From Mesoplasma tabanidae (lineage in GTDB: Bacteria > Bacillota_I > Bacilli_A > Mycoplasmatales > Mycoplasmataceae), in assembly GCF_002804025.1 (NCBI RefSeq), contig NZ_CP024969.1, positions 434,001 to 498,000 of the forward strand: a stretch of 64,000 bases of DNA. Direction: 5' to 3'. Each line of letters opens with the position of its first letter. Positions within the stretch are counted from its first letter, which is position 1. The position numbers and the translations under genes were made by a program. The notes under the pieces are model-generated. The model was not told where the DNA came from and searched no databases. It worked only from the letters and a program-made list of their open reading frames with translations. This document shows positions 8,799-59,682 of this stretch, piece by piece.

Positions 8799-9884
8799 AT
8801 GGAAAAACAAAATAAAAAGCAAAAAAGTAAAAAAAGTAAAGTAATTTTAGCTTTTAGTGTGATAATAACAATAGTTATTTTCTTTTTAATCAAAATAGTA
8901 AATGCACTAGTAAACAATACTAATATTTTACTATCATTAAAATCTATTGGACTAATTCCGCCAGCAAATTTAAGTTTACCCAACATAATTGATTATGTAG
9001 CTAATATTATTTTGCTTATCGTTTTACCTATTTTAATTCTTACTTTAATTATTCTAATTATTAAAAGTAAAAGCCAATCAAAAAACGTGCTAAAAAAAGA
9101 GAAAAAAGAACTTGAAAATGAAACAATTTTACAAGTTGAAAACTTTGATATTGATGATTATCCTCATTATGAAGAAGACAAAACATTTTTTGATGAAATT
9201 AATAATGAAAATATTAACGATTTGACTTTGCTGCAACAAAGAGCAAAATCAGATGGATCAATTTTAATTAAAGAAAATTTAAGTGAATTAGTTAAAAATG
9301 CTCAAAAAATTAAAAACTATGCCATTTTAAATAATATAAATGTTGATGAAGTAGTTTTAGAAGAAATGACAAAAAAAGAATTAATTCTATTTATGAAAAA
9401 AATAGGCAATGAAATAAGAGAAAATGAGTATAAGAATCTTAATTCTAAAGATAGTAAAGTAGATCAAGCAATTTTAATTATGAAAAATGATAATCAAGAT
9501 CAAAATAGATCAAAAACTCTATCAAAAAATAAGAATATAATTGAGGCAGGTAAAATAACTCAAAAAAAGTCCTTAATAAGAAAAAACAAAATTACTAAAA
9601 AAAATCTAATTGATTCAATTTTTGTAAGTAACGAAAATAAATTAACAAAGGTTAAAATTAAAAAAATTGTAGATAGCTTATTTGAATTAATGGAAAGTAA
9701 TTTAATTAAAGAAGACTCAGTAATTAGAATTAATAATTTTGCTAAGTTTTCAACAGTTTTAGTTAATGAAGCAACAATGAGAAACATCAAAACAGGTGAA
9801 TTAAAACTTGTTCCTTCACATAAGGCAATTAAATTTAAATCATTAAAAGGTTTAAAGGAGAAATTAAATAATGAAAAAATATAA
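8799..9884 (+). CDS. Membrane-anchored HU/IHF-like DNA-binding protein
   Basis: 361 residues; ATG 8799 follows AAGAAAGGAAATT. A Lys-rich N-terminus leads into two transmembrane helices (about residues 14-38 and 65-92) with a short outside loop, so both termini should be cytoplasmic. An acidic helical linker follows. Residues about 264-358 match the HU/IHF fold: ITKKNLIDSIF helix, EDSVIRINNFAKFS (compare 'v.i.gFGkF' in HU), MRNIKTGE and a KAIKFKSLKGLKEKL C-terminus like 'vPaFKpGkaLKe'. HU proteins are normally about 90-residue soluble dimers. The role is inferred: membrane tethering of DNA or regulation. It overlaps the HTH gene by 14 bases. Confidence 0.8.
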   Translation: MEKQNKKQKSKKSKVILAFSVIITIVIFFLIKIVNALVNNTNILLSLKSIGLIPPANLSLPNIIDYVANIILLIVLPILILTLIILIIKSKSQSKNVLKKEKKELENETILQVENFDIDDYPHYEEDKTFFDEINNENINDLTLLQQRAKSDGSILIKENLSELVKNAQKIKNYAILNNINVDEVVLEEMTKKELILFMKKIGNEIRENEYKNLNSKDSKVDQAILIMKNDNQDQNRSKTLSKNKNIIEAGKITQKKSLIRKNKITKKNLIDSIFVSNENKLTKVKIKKIVDSLFELMESNLIKEDSVIRINNFAKFSTVLVNEATMRNIKTGELKLVPSHKAIKFKSLKGLKEKLNNEKI

Positions 9885-52830: not shown

Positions 52831-52963
52831 TAGAAGTAACACTATTGTAGGTATATGTTTAATTTAATAAGTGAATTTTATTAACAGATATCTAAAAGTG
52901 GCAGCTAATAGTTATTTTTTAATATTAGCAAAAAAAGATCAAACAAAAAGGAGGATAACAAAA

Positions 52964-54271
52964 TTGAATGAAAATATTTTTAATAATAAAAAACAAAAAA
53001 CATCATTAATAATTATCCTATTGTTTTTCATATGTTTATTTTTAGGGTTAATTTTTTGGGTAAATCAATTAAATGATACGCACAAATATTTCATAGATTT
53101 TGTTAAAACTGAGCAAAAAGTTAAACAATATACAAATGATAATACATTTACAAGTATCGATAATTATCAAAGAGAGATTAATCAACTTGAGCTTGAAGGT
53201 GTTGAACTGTTTGCAAGTTTAAAAGATAACCAATCTATGTTAATTAATTCTCATACTAGTCAACAATATGAAATCAACATTCAAGTAAATTTTAAACTAA
53301 AATACAAATATTTTTGAATTCAAACAGAGCTAAATAACGAACAACAAAAAGAAACTTATTTGCTAAGTATCGATAATAGAAAAATAATTAATAAACAAGA
53401 TTTAGAACAATTTACAAGAAAACAATTAAGTTTTAAAGAATATGCTTTTACAAGTGATATACAAATTGATTTAGAAAAAATCGCTAAGCAATTTATTCCA
53501 ACTAAAGACGCTATAAATCTAAATCTAGTTAATCCAGAAAAAGAAATAAATGAATATATTGATGTAAGAGCTAGTTTGAACAATGAGCTTTATAAATGAA
53601 ATGATGGAAATGATGATGAGTATATAATGAAAGATATAAAAATTAAGAAAGACTTTTCAATTTTAATTGATGAGCAAAATGTGAATCAAGCATTAAGCAA
53701 AATAATTCAACAGATTAATTATTCAAGTATGCTATCAATTGATCAAGTAATTAATGAAACTTTTGTTGCTTATAATGCACAAGCTATTAATGACAACAAT
53801 ATAAAAGGAAGCTATATTATAAAAACAACACAAAAGTTAAAAACAAACTCTTCAAAAAATAAAAAAGAATTTTACTCATTAGAGTTTGAAATAGGTTTAG
53901 ATAGTAGATACAAATGAATTTCAACAAGAACAAACGAAACTAAAAAATTTATTTTTACTGACGACATTTATATTATTAACAACAAAATTTTGCTGGTTAA
54001 TGAAATTAAAAAAATAAAAATAAATTTTGAACAGCAGAAGTTCACCACTTATGATGAGTTAAATACTGAACTTGAAAGATTGAACAAAGAAAATGATCAA
54101 TATCAGCTTAAAATAACTGATTTTGATTTAAGCAAACCACTTGAAAATGACATGATAATTCAAATTAACATAAATTTAATTAATGATCACTATTGATTAT
54201 TAGACGATAACAGCATAATTAATGACGACATTATTTTAAAGCTAATCGTTAACAAAACAAAGGAGAAATAA
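52964..54271 (+). CDS. Membrane-anchored surface repeat protein 1
   Basis: 435 residues from TTG 52964, chosen because AAAAAGGAGG (52945-52954) stands before it; a GTG at 52871 has no such site. A basic N-terminus and one signal-anchor helix (about residues 12-34, LIIILLFFICLFLGLIFW) leave the rest outside. The outside part has about three related domains of 110-120 residues, each with a helix-forming stretch (TFTSIDNYQREINQLE; KFTTYDELNTELERL) and a strand ending in Lys-Trp or Tyr-Trp (Trp = TGA). Possibly related to mycoplasma type-17 lipoprotein domains. First gene of the switchable operon. Confidence 0.85.
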
Positions 54272-54272
54272 A

Positions 54273-55856
54273 ATGAAAAAATTATTAGGACTAATAACTG
54301 CAATATCATTAATATCAACATCAACTACATCATTTTATTCAATTAACACAAATAACAAAAAAGAAAATGTTATTTTGCCTGAAGAAAAGCCAAATGAACA
54401 AGGTGAAAATGATGTTAATAACACAAAATTAATTGCCAATGATGTTATTAACAAAATTCATAGTTCAGCTCAAAAAAGAACTTTTAAGTCATTTAGTGAA
54501 GCTCAAAATGAAATTTTAAACAATAAAACAAAAGGAACTACAATTTCATTTGAAAACACTCTTTTAAGTGAAGGCACAATTAAAAATGGAATGTTTAATA
54601 TAAACATTAAACTTGCTTTAGAAGAAAATTTTTCATGAGATAACACTAGTTTAGAAAATGAATTAACAATTTCAACAGTAATTAGTGTCGATGAAAGAAC
54701 AGAAATTGATGATAGTCAAATTTCAAGTTTATTTACACCGCTTAGTGAAACAATCCCAGCAACAGAAGAGAAAGTTGAACATCAAAGATATTATAAAACT
54801 ATAAATAATGCAATCAAAACTATTTTAAAAACTCAATACAATGATGGTGAAATTTTAAATGTTAATATTAAAGATGAATCAATAGCCCATGAAGTATTTA
54901 TTAATCAAGAAGTAACGTTTTTAGTTGAAATTATTTTAAATGAAGAAAATAAATGAAATCATTCTAATCAAAAAGAATTAAGTACAAAACAATTTGAAGT
55001 TACTTTGAAAATTGATCAAAGACAAGAAATTAAAGTTGGAGATATTCAACAAGATATAATGGCTAAAATACCACTTAATGAATATAATCAACGTAAGTTT
55101 TATTCTGAAAAAGAAGCATTAGACGCGATTAATAACTATAGTGACATATCTAGCTTAGAAGTTATAAAGGATAAAAAAATTTCACTTCAAGTTGAAAGCG
55201 ATTCATCAATTTTAACAAATGACCCAGTCTATAAAAAAGAATACAAAATCAAAGCAACCATTAATGATGAAAAATACAAGTGAAGTGATGAAACAATCGA
55301 AAGCAAAACTATAAATTTAGAAACTATTATTGATATAAGAACTGAAATTAAACAAGCTGATGTTGAAAAAAAACTATCTGATGCATTAGTTAATAAAAAA
55401 TTTAACACAGAAGCAGATCTAGTAAATCAAGTATTACAAATTGAAACAATTGATGGTTCTATGATTACAAATGTTGCAGTTACTCAAGTTAATGATGATG
55501 CAAAAGTAACTATACAAGTTATCTTGGATGCACAGCATCGATGAGATGATAAGGACGACAATAATTTACCTAAATCATTTCAAATTGATTCAAAAATTAT
55601 TGATACAAGATTAAGTTTAAGTAATGTTCACAAAGTTTTAAAAACAAAGTTTAATGAACAAAAATTTAAAAGCACTGATGAAGTAAAGAAATTTATTGAA
55701 GAAATTGAAATTGATGGATTGCTTATTAAAGAAGTAAGTATCACCGGAAACGAAACTGAAGGATGAATAATTATTTTAGAATTAACACCAAATGAAGATT
55801 ATACTTGAACAGATGGAACAAACAAACCAACAAAAGTAACACTTCTAGGAAATTAA
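54273..55856 (+). CDS. Secreted surface repeat protein 2
   Basis: 527 residues; ATG 54273 one base after the previous stop, with AAAGGAG before it. Signal peptide MKKLLGLITAISLISTSTTS without a lipobox Cys. The mature part has four or five domains of about 85-115 residues like those in the neighbouring genes (KRTFKSFSEAQNEIL; RKFYSEKEALDAINNY; KKFNTEADLVNQV; QKFKSTDEVKKFIEE), each closing with a D.R.EI-type strand. An outer-surface or secreted role is inferred. Confidence 0.87.
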
Positions 55857-55860
55857 AATA

Positions 55861-57132
55861 ATGAAAAGAAAATTAAATACATTAAAGAATTATAATAAGC
55901 ATCTGTGAATAAAAAAATACTTTAGACTTTGAATTAGTAAATCTAAATATAATAAAGTTTATAAGAAAGACATAATCAATGCACTTGATATTAAGCATCA
56001 AGAAATAAGTAAAATAAAAATTACAAATGTTGTTAATAGAACTCTTGAAAGTATCCAAAATGAACTTTTTAATCAACAAATAATAACTATTCGAGATTTT
56101 GGTAGTTTAAAAGTTGTAAAAAACAAAAAGCAATTAAGAATAGTTAAATTTACTCCTAGTAAAACTTTGAAAGAAAAAATGCAAGCAACAGAATGAACAG
56201 GCAAATATTGACAGCTAAAGAAAATAAAAAGAAAAAAGAAATGATTAATTTTACTTTTATTATTGCTTGCTTGTTTATTGTCAATAACTGCTACAACAAT
56301 AACAATTATTACTGTAACAGGTCAAACAACACAAAGAATTAAAAAAATAAGTTTTAATGAGCAACGTTTATTTATTCAGAATCTTGTTAAAGACAAAATC
56401 TATGATAGTTTTAATGATTTTGAAAAAGATGTTAAAGAAAATGCAAATAAGCAAGTTTTAGTAACTATTGAAAAAACTTCAACAAGAGAAAAAAGTGCGT
56501 TCTCAAAAATTGAAACACGAATTAAATTGGTTCCTAACGAAGGACATGAATGAGATGAAAATAAAGATGATCTAGAGCGTAGTTTTGAACAGCAGGTTTT
56601 AATTAAGAACAATAAAATTGTTAAAAAACAAGAAGTTGAAACACGACTAAATCAAATTTTAAATCTTTCATTTAATAATGAAAGTGACCTAATTGCAAAA
56701 GTTAATAAAGAATTTGCAGATTTTGAAAATATAATTTTTAAATCGGCTTTTCTTGACCAAAATCAGCAAGAAGAAAATAATTATATTTTTATTTTTGGAA
56801 TAGAGAACGATTATGTTTGAGATGATCAAACACAAGATGATATTGAAATATCAAAGCAAGTTAATTTATCTAATAAAATTGTTAGTTTAGCAAAAACAAT
56901 TAAACATATTAATCAATATTTTGAAGATTATATTTTTGTATCTGAATTAGAGCTAGACACATATATTAGTGAATTTAATTATCAAATTGAAACAATTAAT
57001 ATAAGTAAAGATAATTTCAACATGCAAACAAGTATTTTAACGTTAAAAATTAATTTAAATAATGACTATTACTGATCAGATGAAACAAGAGAAGAAGTAA
57101 TCTTACAAATAGTAATAAAAGGAAAGGAGTAA
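55861..57132 (+). CDS. HU-like domain fused through a membrane anchor to surface repeats
   Basis: 423 residues. Residues about 33-108 match HU/IHF: YKKDIINALDIKHQEISK helix, ITNVVNRTLESIQNEL, the beta turn IITIRDFGSLKVV (compare 'v.l.gFGtF'), then the C-terminal KFTPSKTLKEKM. The flexible DNA-gripping arm is shortened. A polybasic stretch (KKIKRKKK, 120-127) and one transmembrane helix (128-152) follow, so the HU domain is cytoplasmic. Residues 155-423 are outside and carry two or three repeat domains like those of the neighbours. Linkage of DNA or regulation to the surface is inference. Stop lies 3 bases before the next ATG. Confidence 0.85.
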
Positions 57133-57135
57133 TTT

Positions 57136-59682
57136 ATGAAAAAATTATTATCAATACTAGGAATAGGAATTTTTGTTACAGGGACTTCAACAGCTTCTTA
57201 TCCTATTTTAAGTTCAATTAGCCAAAATTTTAGAATTAATGAAAACATAAAGATTTTAAAAGTTAGTGAAATTAAACAAAATTTGCAAGAACAATTGAAC
57301 AATACTTTTAAAAATGAAGAAGATGTTGTTAAACTAATTAAAACTAATAACATTAAAGGTATTGAATATTCTGCTCAAATGCGCCCTATTAATGATGGAT
57401 TACATTTTGGACTAAGAACATTTAACATTATTGTAAAGATAACTGATTTTAGTTTATATCAATGAGAAAATAGTGATAAGCCTGATATGTTATTAACTAT
57501 GACTGCATTCATTGATGAACGCATTGAAATATCAACTAATTTAATACAGCAAGAATTAAATAAACGCTATGAAAATAAAATATTTGATTCAGAAATTAAA
57601 GCACAAAGAGAAATTTTATTAAACAATGAAATTATAACTGGAGCAAATGTTATTTATGTTGAACCTACTAATGCAATTAAACCTGAAGATAGTAAAATTT
57701 ATCAACAAAAATATAATGTTAAGGTTTCGTTAGACGATAAATATAAATGAGATATTCAACAACAATCAACAGAAGGTTTATACATAAAAACAAATATTGA
57801 CGAAAGAAATAAAATTGACTCTGAATCTATTAAAAATGAAATCAAAGAAAAACTTAATCTTAATAATAAACATTATGAAACAATTAGTGAAGCTACAAAT
57901 GAATTAAAAAATGTTGATTTCACTTTAAAAAATGATGTTGAAATAATAAATGTTAAACCCTTATCAAATATTACAAAAATAGACACTAAACAAATAAGTT
58001 TGAGCTATGATTTAAAATTAAAAGAACCTAAAAAAAATAAATGAGTTGATGAAACAGTTGATGATATAAACGCTGAAGTTTCAGTAGCTATTGATAGTAG
58101 AAATGAAGTAGATCTAAATAAAGTTAATAGCGAAATTAACACTTATATACAAGCAAAACAATTCAAATCAGTTGAAGAAGCTTTAAACTACACTAAAGAA
58201 TACAAAAACCTACCAGAAGAAATCATATTTGATAGTGTAACATCAACTTCAACAACAATCTTTGGTAATGCTGATTTAACAATCAAACTAAAAATAAAAG
58301 ACAGCAACAAAGCAAAATGATCAGACAACACAACCGAAACAAAAACAATCACCATCCAAGCAAAAATCGATGGAAGAAGCATTGTAGATCTAAATAAAGT
58401 TAATAGCGAAATTAACACTTATATACAAGCAAAACAATTCAAATCAGTTGAAGAAGCTTTAAACTACACTAAAGAATACAAAAACCTACCAGAAGAAATC
58501 ATATTTGATAGTGTAACATCAACTTCAACAACAATCTTTGGTAATGCTGATTTAACAATCAAACTAAAAATAAAAGACAGCAACAAAGCAAAATGATCAG
58601 ACAACACAACCGAAACAAAAACAATCACCATCCAAGCAAAAATCGATGGAAGAAGCATTGTAGATCTAAATAAAGTTAATAGCGAAATTAACACTTATAT
58701 ACAAGCAAAACAATTCAAATCAGTTGAAGAAGCTTTAAACTACACTAAAGAATACAAAAACCTACCAGAAGAAATCATATTTGATAGTGTAACATCAACT
58801 TCAACAACAATCTTTGGTAATGCTGATTTAACAATCAAACTAAAAATAAAAGACAGCAACAAAGCAAAATGATCAGACAACACAACCGAAACAAAAACAA
58901 TCACCATCCAAGCAAAAATCGATGGAAGAATATCAATTAAAACTGATTTAATAGTAACTGATTTAGGTTACTTTGCTTGAAAAGAAACAGAAGCTCAACA
59001 AACTATTAAAAACAAAATTTTAGAAAAAAATGCAAATTTAAAAATTGATGAGATTGAACTTACAGAAATAACAAATAAAAGCGCAAAAGTTAATGTTAAC
59101 CAAAATTCTAGCATATACTTTGTCGAATCATTAATTATAAGCTTTGAAAGAGATGTTCGTGTAGCACTAGCAACACATGTAAATAAAACAAATATTGGTC
59201 AGATACAAACCACTAGAGATAAAATCAATTTAAATTTATTAAAAGCATTAGTTATAAATAATCCAAATTTAAATACTAACGAGATTGAAATTTTAAATAT
59301 AAATTATTCAGACGAAAATAACTGTAAATTTGACTTAAGCGTTAAAAAAGATTCTAAAGTTTACTTTGAAACTAAAATGGCTTTAACATTCACCCTTAAA
59401 AAAATTGATATTATTGCAAGTATAAATAGTACAAGTAAGACAATTATGATTGAAAAAGTGGAAACATTAGAAGATGCATATAATTACTTTAAAAGTGGAA
59501 AAGATCCCCAATTTAATAATCTTTATCAGTGAGATGATGTTGAAATAGTAGAGTGAGTTAATGGTTCAAGTTCATCTTATCCAGAATGATATTCAGGTTA
59601 CTATGTCATAAAAGTAAAAAAAGATTCATTCTATTATAAAAATGGTGGTCAATCTAAATTGTATCTTAGAAGAAAATATTAA
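57136..59682 (+). CDS. Secreted surface repeat protein 3, size-variable
   Basis: 848 residues. Signal peptide MKKLLSILGIGIFVTGTSTAS without Cys. Several diverged domains are followed by three identical 92-residue units (FKSVEEALNYTKEYKNLPEE ... WSDNTTETKTITIQAKIDGR, Trp = TGA), then a unique C-terminal part (about 595-848) with two LI.NL/ALVINNPNLNTNEI-type modules and an aromatic end (SSSSYPEWYSGYYVIK). AAAGGAG before ATG 57136. Last gene of the phase-switch operon; a terminator follows. Likely surface-exposed and length-variable. Confidence 0.9.
58108..58930 (+). repeat. Three identical 276-bp tandem repeats
   Basis: Units start at 58108, 58384 and 58660 (GTAGATCTAAATAAAG). No difference was seen between them across the full 276-bp unit; the third loses identity at 58931. 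In frame (92 codons). Confidence 0.95.

Follow-up and report, generated by a model that had tools for sequence, protein, structure and literature searches.

A 423-aa protein of Mesoplasma tabanidae joins an HU domain through a single membrane helix to three repeats that are predicted to lie outside the cell and that are shared with the neighbouring genes of its operon, while its HU part, which descends from a family of membrane-linked HU proteins according to the domain tree, has lost the beta-arm. With a probability that we place short of even, we read this protein as derived from a surface-protein/membrane-HU pair in the form of a single chain; its HU core would dimerise with arm-bearing HUs and thereby keep surface proteins at the nucleoid. 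The features around the gene are given below as positions in the window, by which we mean the whole stretch of 64,000 nucleotides that was analysed.

52871..54271, + strand: operon neighbour with a short inside tail, a helix and four outside repeats of the same repeat family (M. grammopterae homologue, 33% identity)
54273..55856, + strand: operon neighbour with a signal peptide and five outside repeats (M. grammopterae homologue, 37% identity)
55861..57132, + strand: HU-helix-outside gene, 423 aa in code 4 (ORF intact; TGA read as W)
55945..56187, + strand: HU domain, residues 29-109 (PF00216 over cut-off; 52.1 bits with the paralog profile; nested in the membrane-HU clade)
56131..56139, + strand: site of the beta-arm deletion, residues 91-93 (profile positions 64-79 skipped; FG-to-KF distance)
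56194..56202, + strand: WTG motif just past the HU domain (alignments; common to the two-helix HU paralogs)
56212..56244, + strand: polybasic stop, residues 118-128 (from sequence)
56245..56316, + strand: membrane helix, about residues 129-152 (hydropathy 2.68; charge asymmetry)
56344..57129, + strand: three outside repeats, residues 162-251, 252-338 and 339-423 (repeat profile; predicted fold of one)
57136..59682, + strand: operon neighbour with a signal peptide and six outside repeats, plus an additional C-terminal region (M. grammopterae homologue, 36% identity)

Between 52871 and 59682, four genes form a tightly packed operon with gaps of 1, 4 and 3 bp, the stop of the upstream gene lying 4 bp before the HU-helix-outside gene and the next start 3 bp after it; a promoter scan gave matches no more numerous than in shuffles. 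An open reading frame such as 55861-57132 would be stop-free by chance with P ~6e-14 in a window of 25% GC, and the codon-position bias in the 423-codon frame is strong (GC3 0.12). In the protein a single strong hydrophobic segment is present at residues 129-147, with 35 K/R and 8 D/E before the helix and 34 K/R and 49 D/E after it, and because the former part is basic and the latter acidic, the HU domain is predicted to be inside and the remainder outside (N-inside). The polybasic stretch separates HU domain and helix, and the outside repeats, of about 90 aa each and with a Y-x-W-x-D signature, are of one family with the repeats of the operon neighbours. These are the very parts that the initial annotation had described, namely an HU/IHF-like domain, a polybasic stop, one membrane helix and outside domains shared with the neighbours, and all of them were borne out. 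Searched against PHROGs, the protein gave a weak match to a DNA-binding protein and nothing else, and a Pfam match to SPOR was not found in it, though a membrane helix is present.

The assignment of the HU domain is carried by profile comparison. PF00216 matches residues 35-91 with 27.6 bits (gathering cut-off 22.4) and reaches 33.1 bits in the genome scan. Since the HU region is lysine-rich, composition was addressed by shuffling: a profile built from paralogous HU domains of relatives, with the 423-aa protein left out, scored 52.1 bits as opposed to at most 10.9 bits over 5000 shufflings of this region. Its alignment spans residues 29-91 and 93-109 and takes in both motifs quoted in the initial annotation. 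Among solved structures, the best relative is Borrelia Hbb (E 0.0023). Homology of the N-terminal part to HU is confirmed at the level of sequence. Modelling of residues 1-150 by AlphaFold2 from three sequences only resulted in a pLDDT of 54, with a predicted order of elements that would be that of an armless HU (the order in HU/IHF being helix-helix-strand-strand-(arm)-strand-helix). With this low-confidence model, Foldseek placed HU chains among its top rows, none of them significant, and VIA-align retrieved common helix arrangements only, with Z below 6 (IHF at Z 4.1).

Within the domain, conservation extends to the core helices, the FG turn and the C-terminal helix, and the arm alone is gone. 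The FG-to-KF distance amounts to 15 residues compared with 30-31 in 31 other HU domains of the own and related genomes, and the arm is kept in 35 of the 35 other HU domains compared, 31 by this distance and four by inspection of the sequence. Fifteen residues including the NPxTGE tip have been lost, in frame and not by a frameshift since the reading frame is continuous. In known HU/IHF complexes the beta-arm with its NPxTGE tip wraps and kinks DNA, and as most of HU's grip on DNA resides in the arm, DNA contact of the 423-aa protein may be lost. The deletion had not been remarked upon in the initial annotation.

The window's genome encodes six HU domains, namely one ordinary HU of 90 aa, four two-helix proteins (L002, L003, L004 and window 8799-9884) and the HU-helix-outside protein, so that five are membrane-linked. 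In the two-helix proteins the HU domain is C-terminal, lies inside and has its arm intact. Two N-terminal helices with a GPxG outside loop were not found in the 423-aa protein, which has one helix, C-terminal to HU. Most of 60 genomes of the family have one plain HU, and Mesoplasma genomes three to six. K31, N34 and the GPxG loop of the two-helix module are invariant in 11 sequences from three genera, and credible modules among 320 genomes of the order come from Mesoplasma (7/7) and from two further genera, with one and four genomes respectively, and from nowhere else. All seven Mesoplasma genomes share one two-helix HU copy, which is 67-82% identical among them and adjoins mnmG in 4/4 loci inspected. 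In the tree of HU domains the 423-aa protein falls within the clade of two-helix HUs with a WTG tail, which shows that its HU part descends from the membrane-HU family; the branch leading to it measures 2.56 changes per column, which is very long, and the exact sister is unsure for this reason. In another genus, three genomes gave matches to the two-helix module that were discounted as stop-ridden, repeated short stretches.

Further members of the family in the window's genome, alone or in pairs with a surface gene, are the following.

8799..9884, + strand: second membrane-linked HU protein in the window, with two helices and a C-terminal HU that has its arm (PF00216 65.2 bits, residues 266-357)
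L069 674-5314 and L070 635-5654 (at about 565-570 and 597-602 kb): surface gene of 1267 or 1375 aa and two-helix HU, 3 bp apart or overlapping

The second membrane-linked HU protein in the window was absent from the initial annotation; its HU is preceded by a long inner linker that includes a DGS-motif domain, and orthologues occur in several Mesoplasma genomes. Two-helix HU proteins of genus g11 (L023, L026, L027 and L030) have, ahead of HU, inner linkers that are acidic or contain cysteine. In genus g10, tandem genes (L034 2983-4891 and L035 3127-4836) code for two distinct HU proteins, each extended at the N-terminus by about 150 residues and neither with a membrane helix.

A second type of two-helix HU (L003/L004) is located in two genera directly downstream of a surface gene of 1200-1375 aa, the product of which has a signal peptide, a weak match to a Spiralin domain and a C-terminal membrane anchor. 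The pair is present in the window's genome (twice), in G008, G009 and G010 and, in the other genus, in G055; surface gene and HU are both broken in G012, an HU remnant alone is left and the surface gene gone in G011 and G054, and G007 has neither. Being present, broken or lost together, surface gene and membrane HU make up a recurrent pair, and their joint loss argues for a joint function. Two-helix proteins with a DGS-motif inner domain and without HU likewise follow surface genes. Such proteins, with the same membrane module, are encoded at L079 3205-4008 and L039 2291-3094; Pfam gave no match for them, and they adjoin surface lipoprotein genes.

One of the outside repeats is predicted with fair confidence to fold as a strand, two helices and then strands (pLDDT 81), and this predicted fold had no match among solved structures. 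Elsewhere in the genus, the repeats occur as one array in M. grammopterae and as single weak matches in two other genomes. The M. grammopterae operon contains homologues of the three neighbours with 33-37% identity, and a counterpart of the HU-helix-outside gene was not found in it, which makes this gene dispensable in the genus. In the window, the operon is flanked by ogt and pepP, two genes with 75 bp between them in M. grammopterae, and it adjoins a transposase with an integrase core. As only two genomes have the operon, gain and loss of the gene both fit. A search for the same architecture in relatives, as proposed by the initial annotation, covered 60 genomes of the family, and the order of HU before helix was found solely in the window's own genome. 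In the neighbour of 848 aa, three near-identical outside repeats of 92 aa stand in tandem (window 58102-58929), probably a sign of recent expansion. For the operon neighbours, Pfam gave weak matches to SSURE, SPOR and NTF2; SSURE exceeds its cut-off in the repeated protein only.

According to the reading that we tentatively prefer, the HU domain of a membrane-HU paralog would have been joined to the helix and repeats of the host surface operon. HU cores form an intertwined dimer, and the core may have been retained as a dimerisation module which pairs with itself or with an arm-bearing HU, be it one of the two-helix membrane HUs or the free HU. The surface repeats would thereby be held at the membrane beside the nucleoid, and the 423-aa protein would be the armless, surface-bearing subunit of an envelope-nucleoid link. 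The architecture, the kinship of the HU part, the loss of its arm and the pairing of surface genes with membrane HUs in the genomes are shown by the analysis, and from there we infer the dimerisation, its partners and the link to DNA. The conserved HU core, the nesting in the WTG clade and the recurrent pair of surface gene and membrane HU support the derivation from such a pair, as do the strongly basic N-terminal part and the tight operon with three surface genes. It is weakened by the missing arm, by a branch length that also fits decay, by the absence of the gene from the M. grammopterae operon and by the low pLDDT of 54 for the HU model.

Deleted arm, long branch and a fusion seen in one genome out of the 60 of the family are also what would be left if HU no longer contacted DNA or other HUs and had been kept, after an accidental fusion, as a basic cytoplasmic plug which dimerises or positions the surface protein; we regard this as a possibility of substance, though a doubtful one, as the HU core scores far above chance, the flanking family motifs are kept and the link between surface gene and membrane HU recurs elsewhere. 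The location of the operon between ogt and pepP, direct neighbours at 75 bp in M. grammopterae, the adjoining integrase-type transposase and the homologous operon without the gene could also point to a chimeric gene of recent origin, its function not settled, in a variable surface operon, but the intact frame of 423 codons, its strong codon-position bias and the packed operon render this improbable. An outside domain joined to an HU fold by one helix brings to mind a transmembrane sensor, in which a ligand bound outside would change DNA binding by HU or gene expression within the cell; HU, however, does not bind DNA in a sequence-specific manner, the arm is missing and no regulatory domain is found in the sequence between HU and helix, and such a sensor is thus very improbable.

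The suggestion of the initial annotation that the protein could tether the chromosome to the envelope or pass a surface signal to DNA is plausible for the arm-bearing membrane-HU paralogs but is probably less direct for the armless 423-aa protein. A wider proposal, which we consider rather unlikely, would see in the membrane-embedded HU family, coupled to surface proteins, a general chromosome-to-envelope tether in Mesoplasma and related genera, with the 423-aa protein as the one-piece form that directly connects an array of surface repeats with the nucleoid. A ParB_N domain was not found in the window's genome (10/14 controls positive), which may make an alternative tether attractive but is no proof of one. 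The question addressed is how the chromosome is attached and parted in wall-less, near-minimal bacteria without ParB-type segregation proteins. A membrane-embedded HU family that is conserved and easily tagged in Mesoplasma, putatively including the model M. florum, makes chromosome-envelope tethering directly testable, and its coupling to surface genes indicates a possible link from the cell surface to the nucleoid. The broader two-helix HU family merits closer attention than the fused gene by itself.

That a nucleoid-type domain linked to a surface domain had not been described, as held by the initial annotation, was too strong a claim: four other membrane-linked HUs are present in the window's genome, and membrane-linked HU has reportedly been proposed in Bacteroidetes already. 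In the HU-CCDC81 and HU-HIG families of Bacteroidetes (PF18174, PF18175 and PF18291), HU is fused to other segments, in some cases to an outside SPOR domain by way of a membrane helix; in contrast to the 423-aa protein, they belong to another lineage and have another outside domain, and the host of the 423-aa protein has no peptidoglycan. PF18174 gave no match in the window's genome, the Bacteroides control being positive. Membrane/SPOR-linked HU proteins in Bacteroidetes (HU-CCDC81) were reportedly treated by Burroughs et al. 2017 (Cell Cycle), a study from which Pfam took HU families and which is said to have proposed a role in chromosome partitioning. This work is cited in PMC12218091 and PMC5906684. 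In the literature searched on Mollicutes, M. florum papers included, a membrane-linked HU or a two-helix HU family was not found.

Noc of Bacillus subtilis brings DNA to the cell membrane (PMC4331003) and is comparable in its working only; it is of the ParB type and not homologous to the 423-aa protein. With HU/IHF (PF00216; Borrelia Hbb, E. coli HU), the 423-aa protein has the helical core, the FG turn and the C-terminal helix in common, whereas it is devoid of the beta-arm and continues into a membrane helix and outside repeats. The two-helix membrane HUs, in contrast, have a C-terminal HU after two helices, with the arm intact and no surface repeats in the chain, but they are membrane-held like the 423-aa protein, L002, L003 and L004 belong to the same HU clade with a WTG tail, and it is the L003/L004 type that forms pairs with surface genes.
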